A stretch of 64,000 nucleotides of DNA from Rhizophagus irregularis (taxonomy: Eukaryota > Glomeromycota > Glomeromycetes > Glomerales > Glomeraceae), in NCBI RefSeq assembly GCF_026210795.1, contig NC_089434.1, forward strand, positions 1,550,001 through 1,614,000, written 5' to 3'. The stretch's first letter is position 1. Each line of letters begins with the position of its first letter. Position numbers and translations under genes: made by a program. The notes beneath the pieces are model-generated. The model was given only the letters and a program-made list of their open reading frames with translations. It was not told where the DNA came from and searched no databases. This document shows positions 29,474 to 55,555 of this stretch, in pieces.

Positions 29474-30553
29474 TTATGGATCACCACCTGATCGTTGGTG
29501 ATACAGTTTCAAGCGTTCTGAATTGATGGGATCCTTCAAAATTTTCCCGTCTAAGGTTCGCAACTTATAGGCACCATTATTTATTGTTTCATGAACATAA
29601 TACGGCCCTTTCCAGCGTTCTCGCAATTTTTGTTTTTCTCGTAATTGACTTTGATAAAGGAGAACCAGGTCACCGATTTTAAACTGCACGTCATGAAGAG
29701 CATTATCGTGACGTTGTTTTTGTTTCTGTTGCGATTGGTATATTACATCCTGTGTTATAAGCCGATCTCCCACAATTTTTCCGGTCAACGTATGAATTAG
29801 GTTGAAAAGATCTTGTTGAATATCACTTTCAGGTAGATCTACTTGAGTAGTCCGAATAGCGAATTCAATCGGCAGTATAGCATCTCTTCCATACATTAAG
29901 TAAAACGGTTCGTGTCTAGTCGTGTTATGTCTTTTTGTTCTATAGGCAAACAACACAGACGATAAGTACACGTCCCAATCATCCTTGTTTTCATTGGCAT
30001 ACTTCGCCAATGCTTCGCATAACGTTCGATTGAATCTCTCTACCAACCCGTTAGTTTGAGGATGATAAGCTGTTGATAATCGATGCTTCACTCCAAGTTC
30101 TTGACAAAGTGAATCTAACATTTTATTTACAAAGTGGGTTCCTCGATCGGTAAGGATTTCCTTTGGGCATCCATGCCAGCATATTATGTCCTCGTAAAAA
30201 AAGGACACCACAGATGAAGCCTTTGCATTTGGCAAAGCTCGGGCTTCCGGCCATTTGGTCAAGTATTCCGTGGCGACCACTATATACATATTTCCTTTCT
30301 TTGTCCTTGGAAGTGGTCCAACAATATCCATACCGATTCTGTCAAAAGGCTGCCCCACTTTTATTGGATGTAATGGTTCGTTTCTCCAATTTTTGCCTCT
30401 TTTCTGACATTCATCGCAACTTTTGACATAAACACGAATGTCATTGAACATTTGGGGCCAATAGTATCGGATTTTTATTCTTCGATACGTTTCATCAATG
30501 GAGAAGTGCCCGGCCAATGGGTCCGAATGTGAGTGGTGTAATATGCTCTCAAC
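29474..30553 (-). pseudogene. Gypsy pol, 3' part: integrase
   Basis: C-terminal portion of the gypsy pol protein, cut off from RT-RNase H by the 25-kb insertion. It shows the HHCC zinc-binding region (HSHSDPLAGHF and CDECQKRG), the DDE core (D in GMDIVGPLP, D in LTDRGTHF, E in HPQTNGLVERFNRTL) and a GPY/F-type C-terminal module (RWKGPYYVHE). The frame is open up to the insertion point, and the upstream part of the same frame continues at 55556 on the other side of the insertion. The integrase joins retrotransposon DNA to the host genome. It has no start codon of its own, so it is a gene fragment. Confidence 0.9.
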
Positions 30554-31039
30554 ATCGTCGAGCTGGTAGTGTAGTCACTACGTTCCTCCACCTCGGCCAC
30601 GGCCTCGCAGTACCTACATCCCCCTCCGTGGGGCAGGTTTACCTGCCACAGTACCATGGTCTGCCACGGTATTTTTCCACTTATTTTTTTTTCTACATTT
30701 TTTCTTATATATAACTTACTATGACAACTATGGCAACTATGGCAGACTACTTAAAAACGGAATAAAAACGCGAATAAAGCCGAAATCAAACAGAATCTCC
30801 TGCCATAGTACCTGCCATAGTACGAAAAATCTTATAATAATACTATGGCAGCCTTAGTCAGCCCCTCAGACCCCAAAATTCGATTCACGCTATGATTACC
30901 CTTTATATACTCACCTAGACCCTCCAAGTATGATTCCCTATGTCCTGAACTATGGCACCCGAACTATGGCACCCGAACTATGACCACTTACCCCCGTCAG
31001 AAAAAATATATTCGGCAATTGAAGATTAGGTAACTATAA
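30554..31039 (+). repeat. Left terminal inverted repeat of Polinton-like element
   Basis: It starts ATCGTCGAGCTGGTAGTGTA and is nearly identical, inverted, to 55070-55555, with only scattered substitutions. It contains repeated ACTATGGCA/CCATAGT words (tandem GAACTATGGCACCC near 30950-30985) and the short palindrome GTAGTGTAGTCACTAC near the tip. Confidence 0.92.
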
Positions 31040-31564: not shown

Positions 31565-31573
31565 AAGGCGGTA

Positions 31574-31894: not shown

Positions 31895-31938
31895 CTTAAG
31901 ATTTGAAGTCTGAAATCTTTCCTTTAATTTGTCGTAAT

Positions 31939-33029
31939 ATGTCGCATTTAGAGAATTACTACAAATACTACAATCTCTCCAGAGTACCGGCACGAATTCT
32001 AAAAGGTGAGGAGCACTACAATCTATATAAAAAGCCCCTAAAGGAGAAGTCATCAGAGCGTCCACGAGTAGTTGTATGGAAACCAAATGCAACACATCAG
32101 GCAGATCTTGCAGAGATGCCAGTCGACCCCAAAGGATTCCACTATTTCCTCGTAGTGGTAGAAGTCGCGGGTAAACAAGTCGATGCAGAACCCTAAAGGA
32201 TAAGACTGCAAATAGGGTTCTAAACGGGTTTGTCAAAATCTACAGAAGAAATCGTATTAAGCCACCAACACACAGACTGGAGACAGACTCCGGATCAGAA
32301 TTCACTAACGACCAGGTACGTGATTTTTTCCTGAACAGCCTAGGGGTAATGATGAGGTTCGGCGAACCAGGAAGACACAAACAGCAATCATACGCTGAAC
32401 GAGCCATCCAAGCAATCCAGAAACCTCTCCTAAAACGAATGGTGGCACAGGAGTTGAAGACCGGGGTGACATCCGTGGAATGGTCAGAAGATTTCTGTGA
32501 TGTAGTTAATAAAATAGATGAAATCTGGCAGAGAAATCCCCCAGACATTCCGACAGGGTCACCCAAAGTGTCAAAAAAGACGGAACTTCTCTCTGAAGGA
32601 ACACATGTCCGAGTCAAGTTAGACGAACCTATTTCAGTACTCGGGAATAAACTCCATGGAAAATTTCGTACAGGTGACATAAGATGGAATCCCAATATCC
32701 GTGTCATCAAAAAAATGATCCTCTCACCTGAACAGCCTCCTACGTATCTTCTTGATGGACCACACGGGCGTCTAGGTGTATCCAGATGTGCGTACACCCG
32801 AAAAGAGTTGCAGATTGTTCCAGAAAATGAACATCCCCCACCTGACTCCGTGATAAGAGGGCAACCCGAAAGATTTGTACCTGAGCGGATACTCCGGCAT
32901 CGCATCAGGAAGGGTCAAGACCAGTATCTAGTCAAGTGGGAACGATACCCAGATACCGAAGCCACTTGGGAACCCGCTGACCGGTTGGAGGAGGATGTCC
33001 CTGCCTTAATCCGCAAGTTTTGGGAATAA
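31939..33029 (+). pseudogene. Polinton integrase with chromodomain, one-base frameshift
   Basis: A retrovirus-type integrase. The first frame (ATG at 31939) carries the first catalytic Asp in HQADLAEMP and stops at about 32196. The second frame, from just before that point to 33029, carries the second Asp in ETDSGSEF, the Glu in QQSYAERAIQ, and a C-terminal chromodomain (YLVKWERYPDTEATWEP). The frames join at GAACCCTAAAGG, where one extra C would restore the reading. Polinton integrases insert the element with 6-bp duplications, and the chromodomain would steer it to methylated histones. Either the copy is decayed or the sequence lost one C. No canonical slippery heptamer sits in register at the joint. 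Confidence 0.85.
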
Positions 33030-33043
33030 AAAATAAATATTCC

Positions 33044-35323
33044 CTATTTTTTGTCTCCTCGATTCACGTCAGAAACTATCGGGATAAAAACATTCTTCTC
33101 ATTACAAGTAAGGGCGATATGTTCACGTGATTCATGGACATCATAATTGTAACATTTCAGACACGTCTGGCTCAATCCAATCTCCCTATGCTTGTAATCG
33201 CTTAAAACTGCGAGATTCTCAGTGATTACACAATCAGGGTTAGTTTGATTGACACACCTTTTACCATGCCGAATGTCCTACCAGAACCCGGAGCGCCGGA
33301 TATGTTATGTGTAATACTCTTGTCGATATCCAACCCTAATTCTTCAGCGGCTTCCCTCTGAATAAAAGACGCGTTAGCACAAGTGTCTGCTAAACACTGA
33401 ATTGCTATCCCATTGACCTCCCCATCCAGCGCTAAAAGATCTTTAGTATTCTCCAAACGAGCTATGTCAATATCCATCGGGTCATCTTCCCTGATATCCT
33501 CTTCTTGTTTTTCCTCAACTAGGTCTTCTGGAATCTCCGTACTTTTACGAGCAGACTTTAATTCTTCCCGAAGAATCTCGCGGAGTAATTTTCTAAAATC
33601 TGCAGACCTTAATAAACTTAATGAATCATTTTTGGTGACGGCTTTTATAAGTGTGGGCTTACTACTAGTAACCTTCACAGGAATCTTAATAGGAGTCATT
33701 TTAACTGATTTTTTTGGAACAGATTTAAGAAGTTTCGAGATACTTACACCCTTATCCGAGTTTACTTTTTTTTTTTGTACTTCGAACTGCACAAATCCGA
33801 AAACCACCTTCCTCATCGGGAACAATTTTCAAGTCATCAAAACTCGCGGTATTAGTATCAATATCCATAGCATCATCATTAAGATCGAGGTTTCTCATTG
33901 CTCGGGCTAATTCCAGATCATCGCGTCTATCTTTAGCCTTCTGAAGTCTCTTTGGAAATCTTTTAGACGTCTCATATCCCATAATAAGATCAATAACATG
34001 TTGATCATCCTCACTAGTCCACTCAGGAGCATCAGGGTCACTAGGGTCATCACCAAAATCATGATCTACATAACCATCATCCCAATCAGGATCCTGATGA
34101 TCCTGAACAACGCGTGGCCGTGGCTTTGGCCGAACAGGTTTAATCTGTTGTCTATAGACCGGTGGTTTACGAACTGGCTTAGATGCTTGTAATTGTTTAA
34201 ATTGTGCCTGGAAATTCTTGGTAAGTTCCTCGGCTTGTGCCTTGAGCAATTCTTGTAATCGTTCTTGAGTAATAACGTCTGTCGACCTTTGTATTACAGC
34301 ACCTTCGTGTGGAGTCACGGGATGAGTATAGCCAGCCAATTCCTCTTTTTTAGCCTTTTCAATACCCTGACGCCTTTGTAATCCATAGAACATTTCACCC
34401 TTTCATCGCTCAAGATCACTCAATCTATCGATTAATATATTAAGAGGTGCCGCCCCGATTCTGGAAGCTTCAATAACGTTTTCCGGCAAAAGTCCTCTAT
34501 AGAACTGGTCAGTAACCATAATTCGATTATATCCTACAATATCCCCAGCCCTCTCAACTCGCTTATAGTAAGATCGAACAGGTTCACCTTGTTCCTGGTA
34601 AAGGTTACTAAATCGTATTTGAAGTCTTTCTTCCACGACGGTTGGAAAATTTGTACGCATATACATAAATGCTTGATCCAGGAGAATCCCCTGTAAGACT
34701 ATTGGTTGATTCTGGACAGCAGCATTAAATGGACCTCCATGATTTCCCAACCCATTAACGGGTTGATGAGTAGGACGTCCGCCCGCACGCCTCCACTGCT
34801 CTTCAACTTTAAAATTCGTTCTAACGATATCAGCGCGTGATGGGAAAAATGTTTCTCCAACGGTTCTCGCCGCATTAGCTAAAATCCTTGAATATGCATC
34901 AACATCAGACCCGGGTAAGTAAGTACCAACATGTAATCCATTAGCAACCTCAGGAACAGCTAAAGCTCTGAACGCTCGGCGAGTAGCACCGGCTCCACCA
35001 TTTGCAGTAGCCACTAACCGAATATTCGAGAGTTCCCAATTTTTTCCAGTAAGTTCTGCATCAAACCACCTCGCCGCTTCATCTCTCATACAGCTACGAA
35101 GAACCCCCATCGCTCGCACCCGACCCAGAGGTGCACCGGCATCGTCCAACGGATCAATACCAACGGTATTAATATACCCTAAAAAGTTATCAATAAAAAG
35201 ATTAAGATCTTCATCTTCCCGACCATGAAATATAGGGGCAGCTATACCAATGGCAGCCATATCGTATTTTGTGGATGGTTGAGAGGAGGTGGAGGAAGGT
35301 TCAATTGTCTGATCCGAAACCAT
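33044..35323 (-). pseudogene. Gag-like protein with aspartic protease-like domain
   Basis: Three blocks follow on the minus strand. 35323-34403 is a Gag-type domain (PIFHGREDEDLNLFIDNF, LRSCMRDEAARWFDAEL, NLYQEQGEPVRSYYKRVERA). Next in the same frame, after one TGA at 34403, is a Pro/Lys/Asp-rich linker. After a shift at an 11-A run near 33770 comes a retropepsin-like domain (CLADTCANASFI). Its C-terminal part (TENLAVLSDYKHREIGL) lies in another frame and ends at 33044. In retroelements Gag forms the capsid and the protease cuts it. DTC replaces the usual DTG/DSG, so activity is uncertain. I see no LTRs or target duplication around it: 14 bp to the integrase stop and 31 bp between the start codons of the coiled-coil ORF and the ATPase. 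It therefore looks like a resident gene of the Polinton-like element. Confidence 0.75.
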
Positions 35324-35946
35324 TGTACTTGGATACGCAGAGCGGCTATTTGTTGGAAAAGTCGATTCCTAAGACGTCCCAATGTCCGAATTCCAAAAAG
35401 AACCCGATTATTGGCATATACAAGCCGATTTCGTGCCGCATCACGCTCGCCTATAGCTCTATTACGTTCACCTATAGCTCTATTACGTTCTCCTCTCATA
35501 AGATTATATTGCTGCTGAAGACGATGATTAGTCGTCCGCATACCACCAAACTCACGTTCCAATTCAGCCAAATTAGCTTCTAAACTAGTAATAGTATCTT
35601 GTACGTTATTTAGCTCATCTTGTGTAAGACCTAACAAACCCGTTTGAACCTCGAGTTCATCTTGTAATTCATCACGTTTTTTTCGAGATCGATCACGTTC
35701 CGCTTTTAATATATCGCGTTCTTCGTATGTTTCTCTACAGCGATGAATTAATAAATTAAGAGCATGTTTAAGACGATGGTTTGCATTTTGTACATCTTGA
35801 TTAACAACCATGCGATCACTGACAGTTAAAAAATCTGTTAGATCCTTAATTACCGCAACTAATGGTATATTATTCATATCACGCAAATCCCTAGGAGGCG
35901 GTCCAGTAGGCTCTGAAGGAGTATAAATTGCAATTGGTGTCGACAT
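35242..35946 (-). CDS. Coiled-coil protein at the head of the Gag module
   Basis: 234 residues from ATG at 35946. After a short Pro-rich start, residues 30-190 are almost pure heptad-like helix (KAERDRSRKKRDELQDELE, LEANLAELEREFGG) with a duplicated GERNRAI unit. The last 80 bp overlap the Gag frame at 35242-35323, which lies in the -1 frame. The two may be one protein split by an indel, or an overlapping pair. A coiled coil ahead of a Gag domain could drive multimerisation; this is inference. It is divergent from the ATPase gene, with 31 bp between start codons. Confidence 0.65.
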   Translation of the reverse strand: MSTPIAIYTPSEPTGPPPRDLRDMNNIPLVAVIKDLTDFLTVSDRMVVNQDVQNANHRLKHALNLLIHRCRETYEERDILKAERDRSRKKRDELQDELEVQTGLLGLTQDELNNVQDTITSLEANLAELEREFGGMRTTNHRLQQQYNLMRGERNRAIGERNRAIGERDAARNRLVYANNRVLFGIRTLGRLRNRLFQQIAALRIQVQWFRIRQLNLPPPPLNHPQNTIWLPLV

Positions 35947-36523
35947 CGTATTTAAACTAAGATAGAATAAAATTCAAATGGATCTTTATGTATACAATTT
36001 GGACGAGTACACGACCGACTCGAGACAGGGTAATGAGTTTGCCCCATCATGGCCTTTCCGTCTTGCCGTAGCAGGAAGTTCTGACTCGGGTAAGACAACT
36101 ATGATTATTAATTTGTTAATGGGAGACAAGAAGGCAAAGGAGGATGGCGAAAGGTACATATTATGTGATGCGGTAATTCTAGTTGGCAGATACCTTGATG
36201 AACCGAAATGGGCAGTCGTACGTGATTTTTTCAAAGAAGAAGAAATTCCGTTTACCGCAGTATCCCATAGTGAGATTCCAAATGTTAAGGACTTCAACTC
36301 CACCCAGGCTACTGTGGTAATCTTCGAGGATTTGATGGATGCGCCTAAAAAAACCCAGGATCTCATCACTGGATTTTTTACACACGGGCGTCACAAAAAT
36401 ATCTCGTGTATCTATGTGGCCCAAAGATTCTTTACCATTCCTAAGGCTATTCGTGAAAATGTGAATTATATTTCCCTACATGGAGGTCACGGAAGTTTGA
36501 CCGATACTAAGAGGATCATCCGC

Positions 36524-37835
36524 TGTAGCCATAGATACTGGAGTAATCGCATAATATGGAGGAATAATATGGAATAAAAGATCAAACGATAGAAAGTCAC
36601 ATGATGGGATAAAATTAACCGGAAAGGATAAACTTTTAGGAGAAGGAATGATCTACATGATGTAATGTTTATTAAATGATTAACGGAGAACCAATAGATC
36701 AAGTGGGGGAGTTGATCGATGTGGCTTAGCAACCAGTTTATCAAGTTCAACAATAGGAACAATTAGGAGGAGTAATCATAAGCCACAAATGATAAATCAT
36801 ATAAAAAGGAAGGATAGCGAATTAAAGGAACAAAAAAAAATAGGAACATGTAAAATATTGATGAACTGCAGCCGCAGTAGAAGAATAGCTGACGAGACGC
36901 AGTAGAAAAGATAGCACAGCCACAAAAGATGGATCTTTACAATATAATATTTGAAAGATTATTTTATTTTAAAGAAAAGATAGCACAGCCACAAAAGATG
37001 GATCTTTACGATATAATATTTGAAAGATTACTTTATTTTAAAGAAAAGATAGCACAGCCACAAAAGATGGATCTTTACGATATAATATTTGAAAGATTAT
37101 TTTATTTTAAAGAAAAGATAGCACGGCCACAAAAGATGGATTATATCTTTACAACATAATATGCGAAAGATTATTTTAAAGAAAAGATAGCATATTAAAA
37201 TAGTATAACATATTAGAAAAGATAACATATAAAATAGCATATAAGATAGCGCATAAAAGATAACATATAAAATATTAGAAAGAAATAAGAAGTAGGAAAA
37301 GAAAGAATAAGAAAGTTGGTTTAAATAGGAGCGGAATGGGAAGTGAATTCCACAGTCGTCAGATACGATGTAAAACTTTAAGTAAATTAGTTAATTGTGA
37401 ATTTTATGAAGAATAAATAAAATACCCTTTATATGAAAATTAATTGTTCCGATTGTTTTTGTTACTATTTTCTTATGATGAAAAAGTAATTTTGTTTAAT
37501 TAATTGTTAGTAAAGCATAATGTTATTTTAAAGGTAATAGGTTCGCCCTAAACTTTACTGTAATGTTCGCTTAATTAATTTTAATTGGACAAATTCATGG
37601 TGAATTTAATGTCATAACAAGAATTATGAAATGAATAAAATATAAACTTTTGTAAAGAGAACTATCGTATTTTGAAAGAAGATAATGGATGAAATATCGT
37701 GGCGAGAGCTATCGCAATTTGAAAGTTAAGTAGTAATAAAACTAAACCAAGCAAGAATATTAATGTTTCGTGGAGAACGAATATACATTAAAGCAGGGAA
37801 GTTTGTTTACCGCCGGGTGGCAGACGGGGGTGACA
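36524..37835. mobile_element. Probable solo LTR (TG...CA, 1312 bp)
   Basis: It starts TGTAGCCATAG, ends GGGGGTGACA, and is flanked by CCGC at 36520-36523 and 37836-37839, a 4-bp target duplication. There is no coding capacity beyond a tandem-repeat frame. AATAAA signals occur near 37415, 37635 and 37735 on the plus strand. TG...CA ends with a short duplication and no internal region fit a solo LTR left by recombination between two LTRs. Its parent element is not in the window. Confidence 0.8.
36910..37180 (+). repeat. 69-bp tandem repeat inside the solo LTR
   Basis: Units begin GATAGCACAGCCACAAAAGA at 36910, 36979, 37048 and 37117; the fourth is diverged and shortened. The period is a multiple of three, so one frame encodes a 23-residue repeat beginning MDLYDIIFERL. 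Nothing suggests that this short frame is a gene. Confidence 0.85.
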
Positions 37836-38530
37836 CCGCCAGTATACAGAAGAATCGGAGTCACTAGCTCCAGTAATCGATGACTTTACTCTACAACGCG
37901 AATTTATAGTATTTGATCTTAGAAGATCTAAGAGCGATCCGTTATCTATTCGGGTTAGATGGGATACTAGTCTCAGTTCGATCACCGATCAATCTCAGTT
38001 CGATCCTAGTTCGATCTCAGTTCAATTCCCGTTCGATCCGAGTTTGAACCCAGTTCAATCGAAGTTCAATCCGAGTTTGAACCCAGTTCGATCGAAGTTT
38101 AGTTCCTATGGCCAGAAAGCCGTAGCTGAAGCAAAAAAGTCCTCCCAGCTAATCGAGTTTGCTCGGGAATATCCGTCGCCTAAAGAGAGAAAACACCTTC
38201 TCGTATCTGGTGTTATAGCTAAGAACGCAGATACCTGGATTAAGTACGTCTTTCGGGAAGCCTACGGACTATCTGGTAAGACCTTGGGATCAGACTTCCA
38301 AAACTTCTTAGCGAAAGTACGGGATAGGACCACGAAGACTGAAATTCCAAAACCTGAGACCGTAAAGGAGTTATTCTCCCGATATGAAGTCCTGAAGTCT
38401 AGTCACCCTTTGGATAATAAAAAATTAATAGAAGGCATCGGGGTCCTTTTACAGATCTTTTCTAAGGGTCATATGGACCGTTGAGCATTACGAGTAGGGA
38501 TCAATAGTATTTTGTAAGAATCTGGCTGCT

Positions 38531-39610: not shown

Positions 39611-39770
39611 GGCTATCTTTCTTTGATTATTCGCTCACTTAGTATCCTTCACAATCTTTTTTATATATTGTTATCTTTAAATACCTGTCATTTGTATAAA
39701 AAAAAATAACTGGCATTAAGGGATCGACCGTTGGAAAGACCGGAGGACCAGAGGACCAGAGGACTGACCA

Positions 39771-40355
39771 TTAGGAAGCGCAGTCCTTGCACAACTTGTC
39801 CGTTAAGTCACTTGGGCTCACAGGCATGAGACATTCCCTACACAACTCAATATTAAGCTCTGCAAGTCTCGGGGCATGGTCCTCCAAAGTTCGTGGACGA
39901 CCGGAAGGACCAGAGGAAGGTGTCCTGTTAGTCGTATCTTGCTGTAAGATAAAATCATCATATTCATCTTGGTCAGCCTGAATAGCGGCCCTGATTTGTT
40001 GTATATCATTAAAAGTTAACCGCTGGCCATCAAGATTTTCCTCATTATAGCGCGTTTCATTGATGATTTCCTCTATAAGCTCCTCCTCTTCAGAATGAAC
40101 AAGGTAGTAGTCCTCAACTACCTCGTAGTCACTCTCAACCAGTCTATGATACGTTCTAGTACCGTGTTGAATATAGCGTCCTGTATCTGTATTTAAATAT
40201 ACAGGTTGTTCCTGGGGTGGAGGCGGTATGGTTTGTCTACGGACAAGCCTTCCATCGATATAATCATGGGATTCCATAACTATTCGATTAAAGGTATCTC
40301 CACCAACACGGATTGGACGTCCGGTTATAGGATTAGTTATATAAGGGTATGACAT
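39771..40355 (-). CDS. 2-cysteine-adaptor-like protein with C-terminal zinc ribbon
   Basis: 194 residues from ATG at 40355. The N-terminus has two repeats of the adaptor motif seen in large DNA virus and Polinton-like proteins: NPITGRPIRVGGDTFNRIV, and a second NTDTGRYIQHGTRTYHRLV. An acidic middle follows (EEEELIEE). The C-terminus has paired cysteines in CRECLMPV and LCKDC, likely one zinc ribbon. Such adaptors are thought to link proteins in virus particles or modification complexes; here the role is unknown. The frame could start at 40418, but the LINE target duplication begins at 40417-40431, so the internal ATG is preferred. The LINE has separated the gene from its original upstream DNA. 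Confidence 0.65.
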   Translation of the reverse strand: MSYPYITNPITGRPIRVGGDTFNRIVMESHDYIDGRLVRRQTIPPPPQEQPVYLNTDTGRYIQHGTRTYHRLVESDYEVVEDYYLVHSEEEELIEEIINETRYNEENLDGQRLTFNDIQQIRAAIQADQDEYDDFILQQDTTNRTPSSGPSGRPRTLEDHAPRLAELNIELCRECLMPVSPSDLTDKLCKDCAS

Positions 40356-40699
40356 GTCTTTTTTCTGTACATACCTAATTGTTATCTTCAATTTACAATA
40401 ACCAAGTGACATCGTCATCAGTCCTTGTCAAGGTAAATATGGCATAGTAGCCTTTATCTTTATTAAATTTATTTAACGAACTTACAAAAATAAAATAAAA
40501 TTTTCAAAGTACAAAAAAGAAAAATAAAATTAACTAAAAACAAAACTATATAGTCTCCAAAACAGTAATAAAGCTATAAAATTAATTCAAAAAGGAAAAA
40601 ATCGCATAACACTAAAACTATCCTGATCCCCCGCCTAGATATATTCCAACCTAAGAAGAAGCAACTATGCAAACAAACCAACGAACAATGCGCCCATTA

Positions 40700-43600
40700 T
40701 TAAAATCGACACACCATCCTGCTAAAGCTGTTAGTAAGTTGCACCGTTAGACGACCTATAAAACCCGAATAGTGATTAAACCAAGGCAAACCATATTTCA
40801 TCGAGTTCTTTAAATAATCAACATCGGAGTCACATGCGGTATCGGAAAGGGTCGGAGGAGGTAAAGTTGAGAAGGGTAAGTACGTGGACTTTGGCAAATT
40901 AGAAGGCCGAGAAAGTTTGAGTTTATGAGTAATATTCATCGCGTCTTCCCATTTAGATTTATCATAGGAGCGCGGTAGCCAAATTCGTTTTCTGATCTTT
41001 TGGATAAAGTGATTGTGGATAGCAGAGATAACCTTCATCGCAGAATTACGTGGAATAGAAAGTTCTTCAAAAAATTCGACAAAGGATTTCGGAAGGCAGC
41101 CACGGACAAGGCTATATGAGGTCCAATTTGAAGAAGAAAAGGACCAACAAGGAAGAGATTTAAATTTGTTAATAATTAAAGAGGGATCTTTCTTAACGAG
41201 ATCACCAGCTTCTTGAAGTTTGTTGATAAAATGATGTTGGTAGGAGAGAAGAATCTGTTCCATAGCGATTCGTCTACATTTACACATAAACAAGTGTATG
41301 AAATCTTCCTTGGAGTCGAGGCATGAACGACACAATAAAATGTCGATGTACAAGTCCGGGCGAATTCTTTTAAGATGTTCCAAGGTAGGCAATTCTTCCA
41401 AAAAGAGTTTGAATTTGAAGGTGCGATGAGAGGAAGCATGAGCACGAGTAAAGGAAGCATCATGCTGAGGTTCAGAATTTAGCGAAAACCAAGTAAGATC
41501 CCAGTCAATCACGAAATCTGAAACAGAAAATAAAGTAAAAGTAAAATTGAAATGCGATAAACGCGTTAATCTATGCATCCACAACATCTGCGAATATTGC
41601 TTGAATAGGCGTCGAGGGTTGGATTCGCATAAAATATCATCATAGTTTAATATAAAATCGTGGGGAGAAACTTGATCCAGATCGGAAAGAAGAATTGCTG
41701 ATGAAGAAGTATGCGCAGAATTGGCCAAAGAGTCCGCGTAGTCATTATAAAAATTACCAGAGTGACCTTTCACTTTAACAGCTGTGACGGATAAAGATTT
41801 GGAGGAAATGAGACGTTCAATAATAGCCCAGAGTTCAAAATTGGTGGTCTTGTAATAAAGCCTGCTATTGGAATAGGAAAAGGTAGCACATAGACGAAGA
41901 CCATCTATGGCAGATTGAGAATCAGTATGAATAGTGACCGTTGAAGAGGGAGGAGTAACTGTAAGAGCAGCATGTATAGCGGCGATTTCAGCTCTTGTAG
42001 AAGAAGGCCAATTGTGAATAATTCCATGAGCGTGAGTAGCGATAGATTGGAAAAAACCAGCGCCATCGAGGACTTGAACCCAAGACCAACCCATAGAAAC
42101 ATCAGGAGTGCCAAGGTTAATTAAAGAACCATCGGTATAAAAACAATAATGGTTATCAGGAGGAGTCGCTAACGGTGAGGCAGCAAAAGCAAGAGGGGCA
42201 GCCGATCCCAAAGAGGGAGGAGGAGAAGGAGAAGGGAGAGTAATAACATCTTCTTGTAAAAAATTAGGTAGAATGTCCAAACGACCGTAATAGGATCTTA
42301 CAGTCTCGTCAAGGTCCGCCCAAGTAAAAGGAGAAGTAATAGTGGTGGTGTCATGTCTAATACGCTCCTGCGTTGTTGGGAGAAGTAAAGATCTAAGAGG
42401 AGAAAGTTTTGGGATGATACATAAAGGAGTAACATCTGTTGGATTGCATTTATTATGGGTAACTGGTACATGTTTAGAACAACCGGGACAAGGAGTAAGC
42501 GTGATAACATCATTAGGTCGAATCACACAATCAGAGGTCCAATGGACAATTTTGCAGGAATATTGTTGTTTGCTAAGTTGTTTTCCAAAAAGAGGAGAGC
42601 CATCTTCATCCAAAGTCACGATCCATTTCATGGATTTGCGAGAGGAACCAAAGGCTGGAGCCAAGTCAATATTTGAAGGAGTAGCATCGGAAGAGAATTG
42701 ATCCAAGAGCAGTGAATTGGAGTTTGGAACAGTGACGCATTGGTGAATATTATTAAACCATTTATGCGGGAGGATACGATGACCTTTCCTACTTGATAGA
42801 TTGGATAAATAAACATTCCAAGTGATCATATGGGTTCCTTGAGGCGTGATGAATTGAGATAGGTAATAGAGTTGCAAACTTCTTAGACGTCGGAAGTAAG
42901 ATATAAAAATTTTTGGAGTCATCACTTCAAATAAAGGCGTGTGACCATCAGGTATGGTGAGGTCAGACGAGGTTGAAAATCGAGAACGTGACAACTTGAA
43001 AGGAGTGGTGGTCAGGAGAGCAATAATGCAAGCGATATAATCCTGTTTAAAAGCGAAAAGTTTAGACCATAAAGTCCAATCTGTAACTAACAATGGAGAA
43101 ATGGGAATCAAAAAAGAAAATTGAATTAAACGTAATCTATATAAAAATAAATTTTTCATAAAAAAAGAAGAAGAATTAGCTAATAAAAACAAATTAGTTA
43201 AATGTGTTTGTGATTGGTGAAAAAATAAATTAATCAATCCCAAGCCTTGAGATAAAAACAAAATAGAATCTGGAAGTACACGTGAAAAATTGGCCTTATG
43301 TTTAACCAAGGAACGGATACTGCTGGTTGCCGACGCACATTCAGATTCAGAGAGGTGTGTGACTTGCATGCGATATTCCAATTTCGGGATAAGGACAGTG
43401 TTGTGTAAATAAACTACTTGCTTAGCAGATAATTTAGCAGGGCGAACGGTAGCAGCGAAAGAGTTACATTCTCGAGCAACTTGCTTTCTGACAAAATCAC
43501 GAGATCCAGCGACATTGAACCAGACGCCCAGGAAGCGGAAAGAACTATTCATGGAAATAGGCACAATAGAAATGGAAGGAACTTTGTTCAGTCCAGATAA

Positions 43601-46321
43601 TTGCAAGTCAAACACGACTGGAGAAGGCGAAGGAGCTGAAGTGGGAGGCAACGAATTAGTAATTAAAACATATTTGTTGTGATTAGCGGAAGTATTATTG
43701 ATCTGATAAAATTCTTCTGTAATAGAAAGCATCGATTCCATTCCAGATTTAGATGACGAAATTAAAGTGGAATCGTCCATAAAGACCAAGTTGTTGATGC
43801 GTAATCCATCGGGACTTATCGCAGCCAAGGGATTAGATAAAGAAGGAGCATGAAGTATATATGGATCCATCATTTCATTCTTAAGAACAGTCAATAAAGG
43901 GTCTATATATATAACCCAGAGTAAAGGAGAGATAACTTCGCCTTGATCTATACCAATACGAACGCGGTAAGAAGGTGTAGTTCCATGAGCAGTAAAAACG
44001 CGATTAGAGCGTTTCATAAAAAGGGATAAAATAAACTTGGTAGCAGAAGCAGGAAGTTTAATGCGTTCTAAAGCAAAACGCAACATCTTGAGATCAACCG
44101 AGTCGAAAGCTTTCGAAATATCTTGTGAAAGGATCCAAAGCGGCAATTTGTTGACATGAGCGTCATGGATAATAGATTCCAGGACGACAATAGGGTCACG
44201 ACAAGAACCACCAGGGAGACCGGCGAAGTTTCCTCCTTTGAGAACATCATTCGAAGCCAAAATGGAAGCGAGACGATTATAGAAGAGTTTGACCAAAGAT
44301 TTCCTAATTACTTCAAGTAAAGTAATAGGTCTTGTATTCTTAAGTTGACATTTCCATTCGTGAGGTTTAGGGATAGGGAAAACCATAGCTTGACGCCATA
44401 AATCAGGAATATCTGCAGTATGGAAGCATGACTGGACCAGGATTAAGACCAAAGCTGAAGCGCTGGAACCCAGATGCTTAAGCATCTCATAAGTAATCAT
44501 AGAAGGACCAGGAGCTTTGTCGTTAGGCATAGAAGAGACCGTAGACAACCATTCTTCAAGAGTAGGAGGATCCAACAAAGAATCATAAATAGAAGAATTC
44601 ACATCATCCATAGGGCGATAAGCAGAAGACCATTTTTCAGGAAGAGCTGAAATGTTATCAGGAGGAGATGATTTAATAGGTACGGAATTCTGGAAGTGGT
44701 TGATAACAGCGTCATCAATATCATGCAGGTCCGTTAGAAGTTTAGGTTGTGTAGGGTGGTCGATAAAGACTCGATCCAATGTGATATGACGTCGAGTCTT
44801 TGAGAGAGCCGAATTAATGAATGAGGAAATATCAGATTCAAAATTGTTGTCCCTATCATCCACTTTAGCACGAATGGAAGAATCTTGAAAATCTTTTTCT
44901 TTGAGAAGGAGGAGGCCATAAAGGGCACTGGAAATAGTCTTTAAGGATTCTAATAAAGAAATAAAACCGTCTTGCCTACATGTGGTTAAAGAAGTAGGTA
45001 AAACAGGGGGGGAGGGAATAACCTTCTTATAAAGATGAAGAATTTTCTTAAGTCGAATGAAATGTATGGACCAAACATGTTCATATCTATTAAAATATGT
45101 GGAAGGATATTTGCGCAATAAGCGTATCGAATGCAAAAGACGGCTGAGGAAACGATAATGTTGAGTTAAAGCTTCCAAATCTTTAGGCACCGTAGGTGTG
45201 TGTTGATTACCGACCGTGACAGATGGAAGAAAAGCATTAGCAGCTTTCACGATACGGGAATGTAAATATTCACATTGTTGATTGATGTGCCATGTTGAAA
45301 AAGTAGAAGGAAGAACGTCGCAAAGAGAGTCAGTGTGAGTGGAAAAAGATTCCCATTGTTGAGCAGTGACTGAATCAAATTTGAAAATGCGGCGAGTTCG
45401 ACGTTGAAGTTGTTTAGCACGAGCAACCTTGATAGACGCAGCCAAGAGTGAATTATCAAAATACGTGATGACAGGATTGTGATCAGAAGAGCAGGTATCA
45501 TGGGCGTCGAATATGTAGGAAGTGAGAGCAAAGCTTTTAAGCATCGGGCAGGACCAAACATAGTCTATGCGAGTAATCTGGTCATCACGGTGGAAGGTGC
45601 CTAGGGAATCAGAAGCATTAACAGGAATGGTTTCTTCATAACCATGAGATAAAAGATGATGCAACAAACGATAAGACCGTTGAGAAGCAACAGAAGGGCG
45701 GTTAAAATAAATAGGGTAATAAGTATCTAAATGCATATTAAAATCGCCACAAATGGCGTGATAAAAATTTTGTTGTTTAGTTTGCACTAGTAATTGTAAA
45801 AGGAGATCAATAGTTTCAGATCGTAATTTAGAATCGGAAATAGGAGGGATATATATAACAAAAATACGCAATTTAATGTTGCCTTTAAAATAAAGGTCAA
45901 CAGATAAAATACGTGAGGAATGTGAAACAAAGTCTTGTACATGAGAAGCAAGAGATTTTTCAATAAAAAGGGAAACGCCACCAGTAGATTTGACTTGTTT
46001 AGTTTTATCTATGTCAGAGGAAAAGACAGTATAATTAGGAAGGCATTTAGATAAAAAATGAATTTGTTTGGGGGATAAATGGGTATCTACGATACCACCA
46101 AGGGAAATATGTTTAAGGTTGAAAAAGTTTGAAATTTGTTCAATTTTAACTTGACTATTATGTCGAAGGCCGTTAATATTAAAGGATGAAATATTAAAGG
46201 AATTGGGGATAGGAGAAGAATTTAAGGTGGTAAATAAAGATTCATGTTCTGAAAAATTATAAATATCTACAGGGTTGGGAGGGTTCCGAACAAACGTATC
46301 ATAATTAAAATTGTCAATCAT
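40700..46321 (-). CDS. LINE ORF2: endonuclease, reverse transcriptase and RNase H
   Basis: 1873 residues from ATG at 46321. Residues 40-290 are an endonuclease of the exonuclease-endonuclease-phosphatase fold (SFNINGLRHN, GDFNMHLD near 193, SSDHNPV). Residues about 590-950 are reverse transcriptase (TRPITLLEVIRK, DISKAFDSVDL, QGEVISPLLWVIYIDPLL, catalytic FMDD near 845 instead of the usual FADD). Residues about 1390-1530 are RNase H (YTDGS, SSTRAEIAAIHAAL, HTDSQSAIDGL, VKVKGHSGN). A C-terminal Cys motif follows (CRSCLDSKEDFIHLFMCKC). The protein nicks the target and primes reverse transcription there. The frame is complete. Confidence 0.93.
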   Translation of the reverse strand: MIDNFNYDTFVRNPPNPVDIYNFSEHESLFTTLNSSPIPNSFNISSFNINGLRHNSQVKIEQISNFFNLKHISLGGIVDTHLSPKQIHFLSKCLPNYTVFSSDIDKTKQVKSTGGVSLFIEKSLASHVQDFVSHSSRILSVDLYFKGNIKLRIFVIYIPPISDSKLRSETIDLLLQLLVQTKQQNFYHAICGDFNMHLDTYYPIYFNRPSVASQRSYRLLHHLLSHGYEETIPVNASDSLGTFHRDDQITRIDYVWSCPMLKSFALTSYIFDAHDTCSSDHNPVITYFDNSLLAASIKVARAKQLQRRTRRIFKFDSVTAQQWESFSTHTDSLCDVLPSTFSTWHINQQCEYLHSRIVKAANAFLPSVTVGNQHTPTVPKDLEALTQHYRFLSRLLHSIRLLRKYPSTYFNRYEHVWSIHFIRLKKILHLYKKVIPSPPVLPTSLTTCRQDGFISLLESLKTISSALYGLLLLKEKDFQDSSIRAKVDDRDNNFESDISSFINSALSKTRRHITLDRVFIDHPTQPKLLTDLHDIDDAVINHFQNSVPIKSSPPDNISALPEKWSSAYRPMDDVNSSIYDSLLDPPTLEEWLSTVSSMPNDKAPGPSMITYEMLKHLGSSASALVLILVQSCFHTADIPDLWRQAMVFPIPKPHEWKCQLKNTRPITLLEVIRKSLVKLFYNRLASILASNDVLKGGNFAGLPGGSCRDPIVVLESIIHDAHVNKLPLWILSQDISKAFDSVDLKMLRFALERIKLPASATKFILSLFMKRSNRVFTAHGTTPSYRVRIGIDQGEVISPLLWVIYIDPLLTVLKNEMMDPYILHAPSLSNPLAAISPDGLRINNLVFMDDSTLISSSKSGMESMLSITEEFYQINNTSANHNKYVLITNSLPPTSAPSPSPVVFDLQLSGLNKVPSISIVPISMNSSFRFLGVWFNVAGSRDFVRKQVARECNSFAATVRPAKLSAKQVVYLHNTVLIPKLEYRMQVTHLSESECASATSSIRSLVKHKANFSRVLPDSILFLSQGLGLINLFFHQSQTHLTNLFLLANSSSFFMKNLFLYRLRLIQFSFLIPISPLLVTDWTLWSKLFAFKQDYIACIIALLTTTPFKLSRSRFSTSSDLTIPDGHTPLFEVMTPKIFISYFRRLRSLQLYYLSQFITPQGTHMITWNVYLSNLSSRKGHRILPHKWFNNIHQCVTVPNSNSLLLDQFSSDATPSNIDLAPAFGSSRKSMKWIVTLDEDGSPLFGKQLSKQQYSCKIVHWTSDCVIRPNDVITLTPCPGCSKHVPVTHNKCNPTDVTPLCIIPKLSPLRSLLLPTTQERIRHDTTTITSPFTWADLDETVRSYYGRLDILPNFLQEDVITLPSPSPPPSLGSAAPLAFAASPLATPPDNHYCFYTDGSLINLGTPDVSMGWSWVQVLDGAGFFQSIATHAHGIIHNWPSSTRAEIAAIHAALTVTPPSSTVTIHTDSQSAIDGLRLCATFSYSNSRLYYKTTNFELWAIIERLISSKSLSVTAVKVKGHSGNFYNDYADSLANSAHTSSSAILLSDLDQVSPHDFILNYDDILCESNPRRLFKQYSQMLWMHRLTRLSHFNFTFTLFSVSDFVIDWDLTWFSLNSEPQHDASFTRAHASSHRTFKFKLFLEELPTLEHLKRIRPDLYIDILLCRSCLDSKEDFIHLFMCKCRRIAMEQILLSYQHHFINKLQEAGDLVKKDPSLIINKFKSLPCWSFSSSNWTSYSLVRGCLPKSFVEFFEELSIPRNSAMKVISAIHNHFIQKIRKRIWLPRSYDKSKWEDAMNITHKLKLSRPSNLPKSTYLPFSTLPPPTLSDTACDSDVDYLKNSMKYGLPWFNHYSGFIGRLTVQLTNSFSRMVCRF

Positions 46322-46368
46322 TAGAACACAATGATAATAGAGTACGGGGAAAGGAGGTGAGAAATCGG

Positions 46369-48501
46369 TTATTGCGAAGGAGCAGAAGCTCGATCGAAGG
46401 GAGAACCACCAAGAGAAGCAATAAAACCTTGGATGGAACCAGTGAGCGATTGTAAGGTATCTTTAATCGCTTTTTGATCTTGAATAACTGAGTTCAATTC
46501 TTCTTGCGGGGAGGGGTTGGGAGTGGAAGTGGAAGCAGAGTGCGGAACATTTTTGAGCGTAGATTTAGGAGAAGAGGATTTCTTTGCACCAGAAGATAAG
46601 GGAGCATTAGGATGTGGGATTAAGGTACCAGTAGTTTCAGGAGGGTCTTCTTCCATCCGATCAGGATCAGAATTGACAACAGGAGCGGAGGGAGGGTTGA
46701 TGCCTAAATGGGCTTCAATAGCAGATAGCCGTTGATTGTTAAGTTCAAGATTTGAAATGCGGGATTCCACACGAGCAACATCTTGTTGAAGATTCTTTAA
46801 AACATTAAGAATCTTAAGGGCAGCCTCAAGAGCATTAGGAGAATTCGGATCCAGGAGTGGAGCACGAGCATTGGACGAAAAAGAAACAGATCTATCTTTG
46901 CCTTTTCGATTATTGGAAGGCGTGCGTCCATGAGCAGTTGAGGAGGAGTTAACTGGACCAGAGGAGGAGGGTTTAGTATTGTTAGAGCTATTATTATTAT
47001 TATTAGAGCGGTTAGAGTTTGAATTCGGACGTTGAGCAGAGGCAGAATGATCTCGGGATTTAGAGCGAGAGCGAGACCGAGAATTATTACGCGGAGCTCT
47101 TTGTTGAGCAGGTCTTTGGCCAATGTTGAAGCGTTCTTTAAGGGCGGCAACAGGGTCGCGTGTACGTGAGCGTCCGTGGCGTTGATTGAGCGGGCAGGAG
47201 GTAGGAGCACAACCGAGCTTACCACATCTGTGGCAGAGAGCTTTTGAATCATTGGAAGTACCCCATCGAAGAGTACGACCTTGGAATCCAATTGTTTGTT
47301 CCATAGCGGCGTCCATTGTTTCTTGTGAGTTGAAGGTAACATAAGCCCAAGGCTTAGGTTTATATGAATTTAGGGAAAGAGGAATGTTAATAGCTTTAGC
47401 TCCATGTTCTTTAACTAACGGAGCGAGATGGATATCTTGAGTGTTAGCAGGGAGTCCAGAGAGGACAGCAACAAATTCACGACGAGCAGCTTTTTGTTCC
47501 ACTGAATAGTGACAGGGAGTAACGCGCAAACAGGTGGAAAAACAATAAACTGCCCATTGGGTGGTAAAACGGGCGATGGCATCGGCATGATCATAAATGA
47601 TGCGGGCTTGTTGCATTTTGGCACCTTTCCTTGAATAGAGATGAAGGGATAGCAGGTTGCCAAATTTCTTGAAATAGGATTGTAGTTGGGGTTTAGTAAT
47701 GAAAAACGGGATATCCGTGACTTGAATTGCACGGAGGTCATCATCGGACCAGAGCTGTTTGGGATCATACAGGTGGAATTGAAGGTCCGGAAAATCGGAG
47801 TGTATGGAACCAATACACAAGTCTCGAGCCTCCGCGGTATGGAAGTGAATGATGAGACGTTTAGCATCCCCTGAACCAGTCATACGAGCCCGACCGGTAT
47901 ATGATTCATATGTTTCTAAAAACAAATTGTTAACGGCATCAATGATTGCCTTATTAGTTTTAAATTTCTCTAGAGTTTGGGGAGCGGAGTTGGGCGCAGC
48001 CACAGCCAGGAAATCTTGACGATTAATGGTAATGGTAGGGGAGGGATCGACAGCCTGATCGGGCGATGTGCCATCATTTACGTCCATATTAAGGGACGCG
48101 TTAGGGGATAAGTTATTTTTTTTGTTTCGAGGTGCATGAATAGACGCGTTAGTTCCAGAGGACGCGTCTTGGCCAGGCGCAGTAGGCGCAGCAGAATTAT
48201 TCGGGGTAGAAGCTTGAGTATTTTCTTGGGCGGTGCTGCGGGAATTATTTTGTTGAGGAATAGCGGTCGAAGTTGAACCAACTAAACCACTGTCAGCCGG
48301 CGCGTCGGCAACGAAATCTTCATAGTCTTCATCCATAGAGTCTTTTGTAATAATACGGGAACGTTTTTGGGAAGTGTTATCACTATCGGAACCAGAGTTG
48401 TCAGAGAGTTGTTTTTTATTATTTTTCTTTTCTTGACGAGCAGCCTTATTACTGTTAGGGTTATAGCTGCCGCCACCTCTTCTAGCAAGGTTTCTAGACA
48501 T
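46369..48501 (-). CDS. LINE ORF1: RNA-binding protein with RRM-like folds and zinc knuckle
   Basis: 710 residues from ATG at 48501. The N-terminal 170 residues are low-complexity (Ser, Asn, Ala). Two RRM-like regions follow: QVTDIPFFITKPQLQSYFKK, then VLSGLPANTQDIHLAPLVKE with PWAYVTFNSQETMDAAM. Next come a cysteine knuckle (CHRCGKLGCAPTSC), an SR-rich stretch (SRSRSRSKSR), Ser/Asn-rich DNA, and a short coiled coil (ESRISNLELNNQRLSAIEAHL). ORF1 proteins of this group bind element RNA to form the particle that ORF2 acts on. The stop lies 47 bp before ORF2. No break is seen. Confidence 0.88.
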   Translation of the reverse strand: MSRNLARRGGGSYNPNSNKAARQEKKNNKKQLSDNSGSDSDNTSQKRSRIITKDSMDEDYEDFVADAPADSGLVGSTSTAIPQQNNSRSTAQENTQASTPNNSAAPTAPGQDASSGTNASIHAPRNKKNNLSPNASLNMDVNDGTSPDQAVDPSPTITINRQDFLAVAAPNSAPQTLEKFKTNKAIIDAVNNLFLETYESYTGRARMTGSGDAKRLIIHFHTAEARDLCIGSIHSDFPDLQFHLYDPKQLWSDDDLRAIQVTDIPFFITKPQLQSYFKKFGNLLSLHLYSRKGAKMQQARIIYDHADAIARFTTQWAVYCFSTCLRVTPCHYSVEQKAARREFVAVLSGLPANTQDIHLAPLVKEHGAKAINIPLSLNSYKPKPWAYVTFNSQETMDAAMEQTIGFQGRTLRWGTSNDSKALCHRCGKLGCAPTSCPLNQRHGRSRTRDPVAALKERFNIGQRPAQQRAPRNNSRSRSRSKSRDHSASAQRPNSNSNRSNNNNNSSNNTKPSSSGPVNSSSTAHGRTPSNNRKGKDRSVSFSSNARAPLLDPNSPNALEAALKILNVLKNLQQDVARVESRISNLELNNQRLSAIEAHLGINPPSAPVVNSDPDRMEEDPPETTGTLIPHPNAPLSSGAKKSSSPKSTLKNVPHSASTSTPNPSPQEELNSVIQDQKAIKDTLQSLTGSIQGFIASLGGSPFDRASAPSQ

Positions 48502-50676: not shown

Positions 50677-52529
50677 TCATGTCCAGATAACCTTGTTCGC
50701 ATTTTTCACATGGCAGTATCCCGCGGTTTCAAACTTGAAAGTCTTTAGAGTCGTATCTGCATTCTCTGAACAAGTGAAAAGCGCGGGACTATCTGGCTGC
50801 TCTTCTAAAATAAATCCATCCGTATGGATACGTCGTACTTTATCCTTGTATGGTTGAATTGCCTCAGATGTAATTTTGCGACCACGTGCTAATAAGAATG
50901 GGGCGATCCTGGGATACTCACCTTTGAAGGGATTACCTGGGTTTGTGAACTGGAATCGCCACTGGTCAGATTCTACTGGTATGATAGAGTCGAGTGTATG
51001 GCCCTCTGGAAATGTAAACGGGTCTGTTTGATCTGCGGTGAGTGTTTTGTAATTACGCTTCCTCTGGCATAATGCTTCCCATAATGTGTTGAGGACTCGC
51101 TTTGCCACGCGGCCAGCTACGCCACCCTGGTTTTTAATTTTGAAGAGGAAGTGTACATACTCACCGAATATTACAGTTCCAGGGATTCTCGCTTCTCTAT
51201 CATATATCAATGCATTTGGCTTCCCATCCTGTATTAACTGTATATTGAGACCAAGTTTTTTTGCTCGTTGTAAGTCAATGAATGTATAGATTCCCCTTTT
51301 ATTCTGTCGGAAGAGAATATTATTCCCACTTACCTTGGCACGGAATAATCCATACAAGGCATAACCCTGTGGTCAACAAAGTCATTAAGTGTCTGGAATT
51401 TACCCCGTCTGATTGGAAAGTTTGCATTCGATTGTTGAATACTCGGGTATAAACTTGTTGCATCGTACTGTCTTCCATAGCCCTTCCACTCGTTATCTGC
51501 CCAGATTAATCCTCCCATCATTGCATCACTTAACCACTCTGCTTCTATCGGGTCAAGAGGATCATTGGCTGGAATCCCTACACTTAATCGTTCGAATAAC
51601 CAGAGAGCCGTTCTTTTGTAAGACCAGTTATGGTATGATAAGTCGATTCCTAAACCGAACTTCTTTGTCTCCTGTAGAAAGGAATTCCGCTCTTCGTGGA
51701 TTCTCTGATATGCTTCTTCGAGAGTTTCATATACCCCAGTCTTACGGTTTTTCTCGACGGGGATGAAAGAACTCTTGGAATTCTTATTTTTTTGAAACTG
51801 CCCAATTGTGCAAGACTTAACCGTTTTGCCGTTGTATATTGTGACTACATTATTGGTCCCATCTTCATGGTATACAATGGGTAAATTACGCTTTTTATCT
51901 AATTTACTGGAGTGGAGTCTTCCGGGATTTAACGCGAGGGAGTAATGGCCTTCTGACAGGATGAGAGTCGCACGTCTATCGGACTTACTCTTAGAGATTC
52001 GGGTAATGTCCCCCACAATATTAATTGCAAGACTTCCTGCGAGTTGTTCAACCTTGTCCATGCATGAAACTGGGATGGAAGCATCACGATTGAGACCTAA
52101 TGCCTTTTTGATATACTCGGGCTTTTCGATTGACTTTGGCATTTTAGAGAATGTGCCGTAGATATATTTCAGGCATTCATACAGGCAATCATTTAGCTCC
52201 CCGTTGCAACCTCCTGCAACCGGTGGGGCATCTCTCACATAAATTATGAATCGTTCAAAATAATCAGGGTCTGCGTCATCCGGTAGTTGTGCTTCGTCGT
52301 AGTGATCCAAGAGTGAGAAAAGGCTAGCTGGTTGGTTTCCTGATGTCCATCCACCGGGTTTCCAGTTTTCATAGGGGAGCAGGATCTGAAATTTATGTGT
52401 CGGATACCGGGATTGGAGTCGCTGTCCAAGTTTTGCTATTGCTCCTCTGGAAAATCTTGCGCCTGAATACTGTAATTCTTTGATATCCGGTCTTGTAGGT
52501 AAAGCACGGACAATCTCTGAATAAACCAT
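50677..52529 (-). pseudogene. Family B DNA polymerase, protein-primed type, one-base frameshift
   Basis: Two frames (52529-51330 and from about 51357 to 50677) together encode about 625 residues. Motif A is YDATSLYPS (about 365-373), the motif B region is KRVLNTLWEALCQRK, and motif C is IHTDGF, all in order. The joint lies at CACAGGGTTATG, where one more G would restore the frame. The N-terminal half has NDCLYECL and, later, EGHYSLAL, a Cys...His arrangement like OTU-type cysteine peptidases. I do not find the usual 3'-5' exonuclease motifs. Such polymerases copy Polintons from a protein primer. The gene lies in a minus-strand cluster, 83 bp after the 49-residue ORF. Confidence 0.87.
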
Positions 52530-52612
52530 TTGATGTATTTATGAATTGTGTTCAGTTGTAATATAGGTTTTTTATACAAAAAATATAAGATAACTAAGAA
52601 GTGCTTATCTTA

Positions 52613-52762
52613 TTAAAAGGAGTCAATCTTGCTGCATACACAATCAAGATCCTCTTCATCCCAGTCATCGATGAGTCCATTGGCAGCTTCCCATTCACGT
52701 TCCATATCAGTTTTTGGACGTTCCTCGGGGATCTCTCGCGCTTTACCCTTATCTGCCCTCAT
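52613..52762 (-). CDS. 49-residue acidic ORF overlapping helicase stop
   Basis: The ATG at 52762 overlaps the helicase stop in the arrangement ATGA. The product starts MRADKGKAREIPEERPKTD, has an acidic DDWDEEDLD stretch, and ends with CVCSKIDSF. The overlap resembles stop-restart coupling, which is rare in eukaryotes but used by some RNA elements. It could also be the true helicase C-terminus in another frame. Function is unknown. Confidence 0.4.
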   Translation of the reverse strand: MRADKGKAREIPEERPKTDMEREWEAANGLIDDWDEEDLDCVCSKIDSF

Positions 52763-55041: not shown

Positions 55042-55069
55042 TTTTTGTTCTATCAAATCGAGTACTAAT

Positions 55070-55555
55070 TTATAGTTACCTAATCTTCAATTGCCGAATA
55101 TATTTTTTCTGATGGGGGTAAGTGGTCATAGTTCGGGTGCCATAGTTCGGGTGCCATAGTTCAGGACATAGGGAATCATACTTGGAGGGTCTAGGTGAGT
55201 ATATAAAGGGTAATCATAGCGTGAATCGGGTGTTGGGGTCTGAGGGGCTGACTAAGGCTGCCATAGTATTATTATAAGATTTTTCGTACTATGGCAGGTA
55301 CTATGGCAGGAGATTCTGTTTGATTTCGGCTTTATTCGCGTTTTTATTCCATTTTTAAGTAGTCTGCTATAGTTGCCATAGTTGTCATAGTAAGTTATAT
55401 ATAAGAAAAAATGTAGAAAAAAAAATAAGTGGAAAAATACCGTGGCAGACCATGGTACTGTGGCAGGTAAACCTGCCCCACGGAGGGGGGATGTAGGTAC
55501 TGCGAGGCCGTGGCCGAGGTGGAGGAACGTAGTGACTACACTACCAGCCCGACGA
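55070..55555 (-). repeat. Right terminal inverted repeat of Polinton-like element
   Basis: Mirror copy of 30554-31039 with scattered differences, for example a 6- versus 5-C run and ACACC for AATTC-like changes near 55227. The outer end is next to CTCAAC at 55556-55561. The helicase start codon lies 28 bp inside it. Confidence 0.92.

Follow-up and report, generated by a model that had tools for sequence, protein, structure and literature searches.

The window analysed here, 64,000 nucleotides of Rhizophagus irregularis DNA (C6:1550001-1614000 of the searched genome, which comprises 147 Mb in 32 contigs), holds a DNA element with long inverted terminal repeats. It carries genes for a family-B DNA polymerase (PolB), an rve integrase and an A32-type packaging ATPase together with a coiled coil, a Gag-like protein with a capsid (CA) domain and a retropepsin (PR; Table 1). 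Its polymerase, integrase, ATPase and terminal repeats place it with the Polintons. We consider it probable that R. irregularis harbours here a self-synthesising DNA element of Polinton/Maverick type, with a Gag-protease of retroelement type as its capsid module. The position of Gag and retropepsin is fixed, next to the A32 gene in most lineages and next to the integrase gene in one.

A preliminary description, made from the letters of the window alone, had placed integrase, coiled coil, Gag, retropepsin and ATPase where domain matches and coordinates now also put them, with the module between integrase and ATPase. The start codons of coiled coil and ATPase are 31 bp apart, and the 14 bp which it gave between the module and the integrase stop are found in the copy L027 between the stop codons of protease and integrase. 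The inverted terminal repeats, the target duplication, the surrounding retroelement and the nested LINE had no place in that description.

Table 1. Features of the element and of its nested insertions in the window (positions in the window; aa, amino acids; ORF, open reading frame)
Feature	Position	Strand	Remark
Target duplication TCAAC, left copy	30549..30553	.	5 bp
Left inverted terminal repeat	30554..31039	+	outer end adjoins TCAAC
rve integrase with chromodomain, two frames, broken near 32193	31900..33029	+	Chromo 4.8e-18
Retropepsin (PR), two frames, broken near 33240	33044..33825	-	Asp_protease_2 5.2e-08; ADTCA at place of catalytic motif
Gag, in-frame stop at 34403	33755-35368	-	CA part 34403-35323
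Gag C-terminal part	33752..34393	-	one 537-aa ORF with CA in L027
A-run at Gag/PR junction, A11 in window	33766..33776	-	A9 in most copies compared
Gag capsid (CA) domain, 306-aa ORF	34403..35323	-	AlphaFold model
Coiled-coil protein or N-terminal Gag region	35242..35946	-	fused to CA in public model P0001 and in P0126
A32-type packaging ATPase, first part	35978..36523	+	Pox_A32 2e-11; 100% to L027 residues 1-182
Insertion splitting ATPase in window copy	36524..37836	.	gap between two ATPase matches
ATPase C-terminal part	37837..38514	+	90.7% to L027 residues 182-396
Small conserved ORF, 191 aa in L027	38531..38944	-	no Pfam match at 0.01
Small ORF, weak 2-cysteine adaptor match	39771..40418	-	2C_adapt 0.0011, below cut-off
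Nested long interspersed nuclear element (LINE), two ORFs, foreign to element	40700..48501	-	RVT_1 9.4e-22, RRM_1 5.1e-08
Two small conserved ORFs, 156 and 178 aa	49536..50625	-	no Pfam match at 0.01
Short PolB, two frames	50677..52538	-	97.7% to L028
D5-type helicase, split	52616..55056	-	Pox_D5 5.2e-07, DUF5906 4.4e-06
Right inverted terminal repeat	55070..55556	-	pairs with left repeat
Target duplication TCAAC, right copy	55557..55561	.	5 bp

Identity of the Gag-protease module

The Gag identity proposed in the preliminary description stands on the predicted fold of the 306-residue domain, on features of distant family members and on a frameshift-like junction between Gag and protease. The window CA gave an AlphaFold model with a predicted local distance difference test (pLDDT) of 78.8 and a predicted template modelling score (pTM) of 0.69. 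In two models from different lineages the top fold matches were retroviral CA and the matches were almost solely CA, none of them at E<=0.001; Arc, PEG10 and Drt2, which are endogenised Gag CA pieces, were among them. Distant members add a weak Retrotrans_gag match and CCHC zinc knuckles (zf-CCHC 0.0074 in L035, 0.0027 in L039 and 0.0093 in P0126, all below the cut-off). L047, a 1.5-kb piece of a Gag locus with no A32 nearby, has a CCHC motif visible by eye and, after it in the same frame, a DTGS protease, soon after which the frame ends. At the place of the catalytic motif the protease reads LDSGA in L035, FDTGS in L047 and ADTCA in the lineage to which the window copy belongs (type I). No CCHC motif was seen in type I Gag, and the window copy of Gag had no match in Pfam.

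Near-identical public proteins to the Gag ORF come from R. irregularis, and the 120 listed of 293 homologues include R. irregularis, R. clarus, Cetraspora pellucida, Paraglomus brasilianum and metagenomes. Against the sequences in PDB the Gag profile gave only chance rows of coiled-coil type (best E 0.58) and the ATPase profile no match. In IMG/VR no viral contig was confirmed as related to Gag, to the ATPase or to the Gag-protease piece L047. Comparison by hhalign of the element Gag with that of the long terminal repeat (LTR) element which surrounds it in the window yielded a probability of 0.9%, so that close kinship is not shown.

Linkage to the packaging ATPase

A protein search of the genome yielded at least 133 Gag rows, which merged into at least 112 loci; all counts are lower bounds. 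Among the matches listed, an A32 ATPase lies within 12 kb of 109 of these 112 Gag loci, always on the opposite strand and divergent, and within 1,250 bp of 103 of them; just 0.25% of the genome is that close to a type I Gag locus, so the pairing is more frequent than chance would give. The commonest spacings between the two genes are 748 bp (at least 39 loci) and 655 bp (at least 30). Three listed Gag loci have no A32 within 12 kb (C10:2392083, C11:1790100 and C15:4014323). Conversely, Gag is present at 108 of the 111 listed A32 loci of at least 60% identity. Taking all lineages together, Gag is matched no more than 15 kb from 140 of the 168 A32 loci listed, and 3.8% of the genome lies that close. 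Of the 28 loci for which no such match is listed, the three whose genes were compared (L039, L041 and L045) all possess the module of coiled coil, A9 run and protease; in two of these three, another segment replaces CA.

The module also lies inside complete units. The terminal repeats in the window are about 490 bp long and pair at 98.4% over 486 bp. Four further copies, all type I/group 2, likewise have long inverted terminal repeats; these pair at 99.2, 98.9, 99.8 and 100% (C23, C13, C17 and C11, respectively), and the copies measure 14.3-15.4 kb by coordinates, with the Gag module inside each. With the GTCGTCGG-like terminus taken as the end, four of the five copies are flanked by a 5-bp duplication (TCAAC in the window, ATATC in C13, ACACT in C17, TACAT in C11; the C23 copy has none). 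The family is mobile as a DNA unit that has terminal repeats and duplicates 5 bp of its target. Polintons make target duplications of 6 bp; here, four of five copies have 5 bp and the window reaches 6 bp only if a terminal C is counted. In type II, no inverted terminal repeats were found between the two stretches compared (L035/L036).

In window 31040-40600, in L027 and in L031 the module is not flanked by direct repeats of at least 60 bp, in line with the earlier statement that neither LTRs nor a duplication surround it. The sole direct-repeat family in the tested regions is a 69-bp tandem array at 36904-37210, outside the module. That the module is a fixed gene, as had also been proposed, is borne out by the A32 linkage, by its position inside terminal-repeat units and by its recurrence in distant lineages. 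The suggested adjacency of Gag and ATPase within similar terminal repeats was found as a constant divergent pairing and in five copies with paired repeats. Neither intact relatives lacking the module, nor LTRs around it, nor a double-jelly-roll capsid gene appeared in the loci compared. Very likely, then, Gag-protease is fixed in a Polinton-type element. A nested LTR fragment was considered as well and is rejected on the grounds of A32 linkage, missing flanking repeats, selection and recurrence across lineages.

Selection on the module and possible exchange of CA

Type I falls into two groups, between which CA is about 45% and A32 about 90% identical. Within group 1 the pooled ratio of non-synonymous to synonymous differences (pN/pS) is 0.40 for CA (13 sequences), 0.24 for the Gag C-terminal part, 0.18 for the protease, 0.24 for the coil, 0.12 for the integrase (3 sequences) and 0.05 for the ATPase. 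Between the two groups, the corresponding substitution ratio (dN/dS) amounts to 0.26-0.27 for CA, 0.14 for the protease, 0.05-0.06 for the ATPase and 0.07 for the integrase; the Gag C-terminal part (0.51-0.54) and the coil (0.85-0.89) are higher. CA is under purifying selection. In one pair, bootstrapping gave a pS of 0.69 (0.61-0.76) for CA, 0.41 (0.31-0.53) for the coil and 0.56 (0.45-0.67) for the ATPase; in the same pair it is 0.37 for the Gag C-terminal part, 0.38 for the protease and 0.36 for the integrase. Since the pS of CA is above that of its flanks, its history is older than theirs or foreign, as after an exchange of the CA domain. The ATPase value is intermediate between CA and the CA flanks, and dS of CA is near saturation.

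The junction between Gag and protease

At every locus compared, the Gag frame stops at a run of A and the protease frame runs across it. We located the copies by the letters after this run. Of 19 copies, 14 have exactly nine A, namely all six distant loci, both group 2 copies and six of the eleven in group 1; four copies have eight, and the window has eleven. The A9 copies read AAA AAA AAG or AAC in the Gag frame, with the stop codon next or one codon on, and the -1 frame encodes the protease; A8 and A11 copies have another frame relation. In the spans of type I and of group 2, no run of at least eight A exists apart from the junction. Four of the six distant loci (L035, L037, L039 and L043) have a second run of 8-10 A near the protease stop. 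P0102, a metagenome relative of Gag with 120 member sequences, ends in KKK, like the A-run junction. No stable RNA structure that could stimulate frameshifting was found after the run, so slippage of RNA polymerase is as possible as ribosomal slippage. The public gene models P0058 and P0078 join coil, Gag and protease by introns instead, and Gag and protease may be joined in that way rather than by slippage.

Distant lineages

At least 27 merged A32 loci fall below 60% identity. We compared 20 kb around six of them (L035, L037, L039, L041, L043 and L045). Coiled coil, A-run junction and a protease-like ORF occur in all six, the L039 protease having no Pfam match, and CA is recognised by profile in L035, L037, L043 and L045. 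In L039 (6537-7367) and L041 (5597-7289) a different, shorter segment, unmatched by CA profile or Pfam, sits where CA is expected; an exchange of the capsid domain is a possible origin.

Further queries were the A32, CA and integrase of type II and a Gag of a third lineage. Among the matches listed, 19 of 55 Gag loci outside type I have A32 no more than 12 kb away, and 18 of 28 third-lineage Gag loci have it within 15 kb. Near the other 36 of the 55 no A32 is listed; 22 of these 36 have a divergent integrase of the element type, 15 of them at 976-978 bp. Examples of this A32-less lineage are C3:730222-731025 and C29:3005358-3006161, with about 34 more. We considered whether it represents an LTR retrotransposon and possible donor. 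The L047 ORF ends after the protease, and for the 22 of 36 loci that have the element-type integrase on the opposite strand we rejected this reading, as a gag-pol order does not fit.

Possible function of the module

Judged from these sequences, Gag is likely to be the shell of the element, and the presence of A32 and PolB suggests that DNA would be packaged into it. Translation would give mostly Gag and, by slippage at the A-run (a ribosomal -1 shift or RNA polymerase), less Gag-protease. Gag would assemble into a shell into which A32 would pump the linear DNA made by PolB, retropepsin would mature this shell, and the integrase would insert the element DNA elsewhere, in the same or another nucleus. 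An ancestor of these lineages probably acquired Gag-protease from an LTR element, and the CA domain would since have been exchanged among them. We regard the chances as evenly balanced for the full scenario, a lineage of double-stranded DNA elements of early-branching fungi in which the jelly-roll shell was replaced by a Gag shell, filled by A32 with PolB-made DNA and matured by a slippage-made retropepsin, with CA exchanged like a cassette.

Gag-protease might instead be fixed and selected without forming a DNA shell, the elements being capsid-less and the protein having a role inside the cell, as scaffold for integrase and DNA, in nuclear entry or in interference with LTR elements, as Ty1 Gag fragments are known to exert. 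The lineage with constant order of Gag, protease and integrase but no detected A32 suggests such an integration-side function, and Arc, PEG10 and Drt2, all with other functions, are among the structural matches. However, A32 is the best conserved of the genes tested (pN/pS 0.05) and lies beside Gag in most copies, and the retained protease and slippage junction suit a maturing particle better than a scaffold; we therefore hold this role to be unlikely. It is more doubtful still that Gag particles carry RNA or protein while A32 has another role, such as the partition or transfer of DNA. In known systems RNA is packed by retroelement Gag that has CCHC knuckles, and the distant lineages keep CCHC, but type I is without a visible motif and no reverse transcriptase domain occurs in the scanned ORFs of intact copies.

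Two further explanations appear highly improbable. A retrotransposon or a fragment of one could have inserted beside the ATPase by chance and been copied as a passenger ever since; Gag and retropepsin are indeed of retroelement type, and LTR elements are abundant in the genome and even present in the window. Against this speak the lack of flanking direct repeats, the purifying selection on CA, the A9 junction kept across lineages and the recurrence of the module in differing gene arrangements. Equally hard to accept is that the 306-residue domain is an unrelated helical protein: while the window copy has no Pfam match and the fold matches are not significant by E-value, the two models from different lineages matched almost solely CA, and in relatives CCHC and retropepsin also occur, in the order expected of Gag-protease.

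Comparison with known systems

With Polintons and Mavericks the element shares PolB, rve integrase, A32 ATPase, long inverted terminal repeats and a size of 15 kb, but it appears to have Gag and retropepsin in place of a double-jelly-roll capsid and an adenoviral-type protease, and the duplication is 5 bp. Coiled coil, CA fold, retropepsin, the frame change between Gag and protease and, in distant lineages, CCHC are features of Ty3/Metaviridae LTR retrotransposons. Unlike these, it lacks LTRs and, in the intact copies scanned, reverse transcriptase and RNase H, and its integrase is on the opposite strand among PolB, A32 and helicase. The domesticated Gag genes Arc, PEG10, MOAP1 and Drt2 have the same CA C-lobe fold but are host genes, whereas this Gag belongs to an element of more than 100 copies. 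Replication and capsid genes from unrelated groups are joined in cruciviruses and bidnaviruses, too; neither of these is known to have Gag or to be a PolB/A32 element with a Gag shell.

Polintons are regarded as ancestors of many eukaryotic DNA viruses, with the jelly-roll capsid as unifying feature. The reported lack of a capsid gene in those of R. irregularis fed the idea of a reduction to plain transposons. A fixed and selected Gag-protease beside the packaging ATPase offers an alternative, testable answer, namely that the shell was swapped for a retroviral one. If this is true, the capsid of one virus realm is replaceable by that of another, Gag can enclose actively packaged DNA and there is a new way of building a DNA virus; packaging, if shown, would merit a category of its own apart from Polintons. 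Polintons and Mavericks of R. irregularis are already published (PMC7805220, PMC8647823, PMC11075540). The passages of PMC7805220 (2021) on early Polintons count those of Glomus intraradices (= R. irregularis) among the ones without detectable major capsid protein (MCP), which is known for other cases, 'albeit not yet ... in E. invadens or G. intraradices'; PMC8647823 and PMC11075540 report Mavericks as expanded or curated in R. irregularis and name no capsid in the passages concerned. No paper on a Polinton with Gag was found in the open-access literature searched.

Other genes and nested layers

The intact copy L027/L028 has ORFs for integrase (376 aa), protease (260), Gag (537), coiled coil, ATPase (400), PolB (620) and helicase (846). 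At a threshold of 110 aa there are further ORFs of 191, 203, 168 and 178 aa, one of 111 aa clipped at the stretch edge and one of 173 aa at the left end; the gene content of L031/L032, also intact, is similar. The Pfam families of L027/L028 are Chromo, rve, Asp_protease_2, Pox_A32 (1.2e-10 for the L027 ATPase), DNA_pol_B_2, DUF5906 and Pox_D5. The rve domain matched at 1.3e-08 in L027 and at 9.4e-09 in L035, and PolB by DNA_pol_B_2 at 6.9e-06 in L028 (25.7 bits, cut-off 25.8) and by DNA_pol_B at 3.6e-40 in type II L035. Inside the repeats of L027/L028 and L031/L032 no unassigned ORF exceeds 220 aa, which is too short for a double-jelly-roll capsid, as such proteins are longer than that. A genome search with PF04451 (capsid of nucleocytoplasmic large DNA viruses) gave no match, but its control was equally silent and the double-jelly-roll fold was not itself searched for. 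No Pfam match to an adenoviral-type cysteine protease occurred among the scanned ORFs, with no search aimed at that protease, and none to reverse transcriptase (RVT) or RNase H in eight scanned ORFs of L027/L028.

The reverse transcriptases in the window belong solely to the nested LINE, which is absent from L027/L028, and to the outermost layer, a Ty3-type LTR element with direct repeats at 28344-28756 and 60073-60485 and matches to RVT_1, RNase H and rve. Window 28344-60485 is thus a nest of three layers, an LTR element holding the DNA element with inverted repeats, which in turn holds the LINE. The window copy of the DNA element is decayed, with broken frames in integrase, protease, Gag, PolB and helicase and an ATPase interrupted by 1.3 kb; the 69-bp tandem array lies within this insertion. 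Its helicase is another mosaic gene, the middle being just 53% but the end 96% identical to L028. A 19-bp tandem array lies at window 62782-63499.

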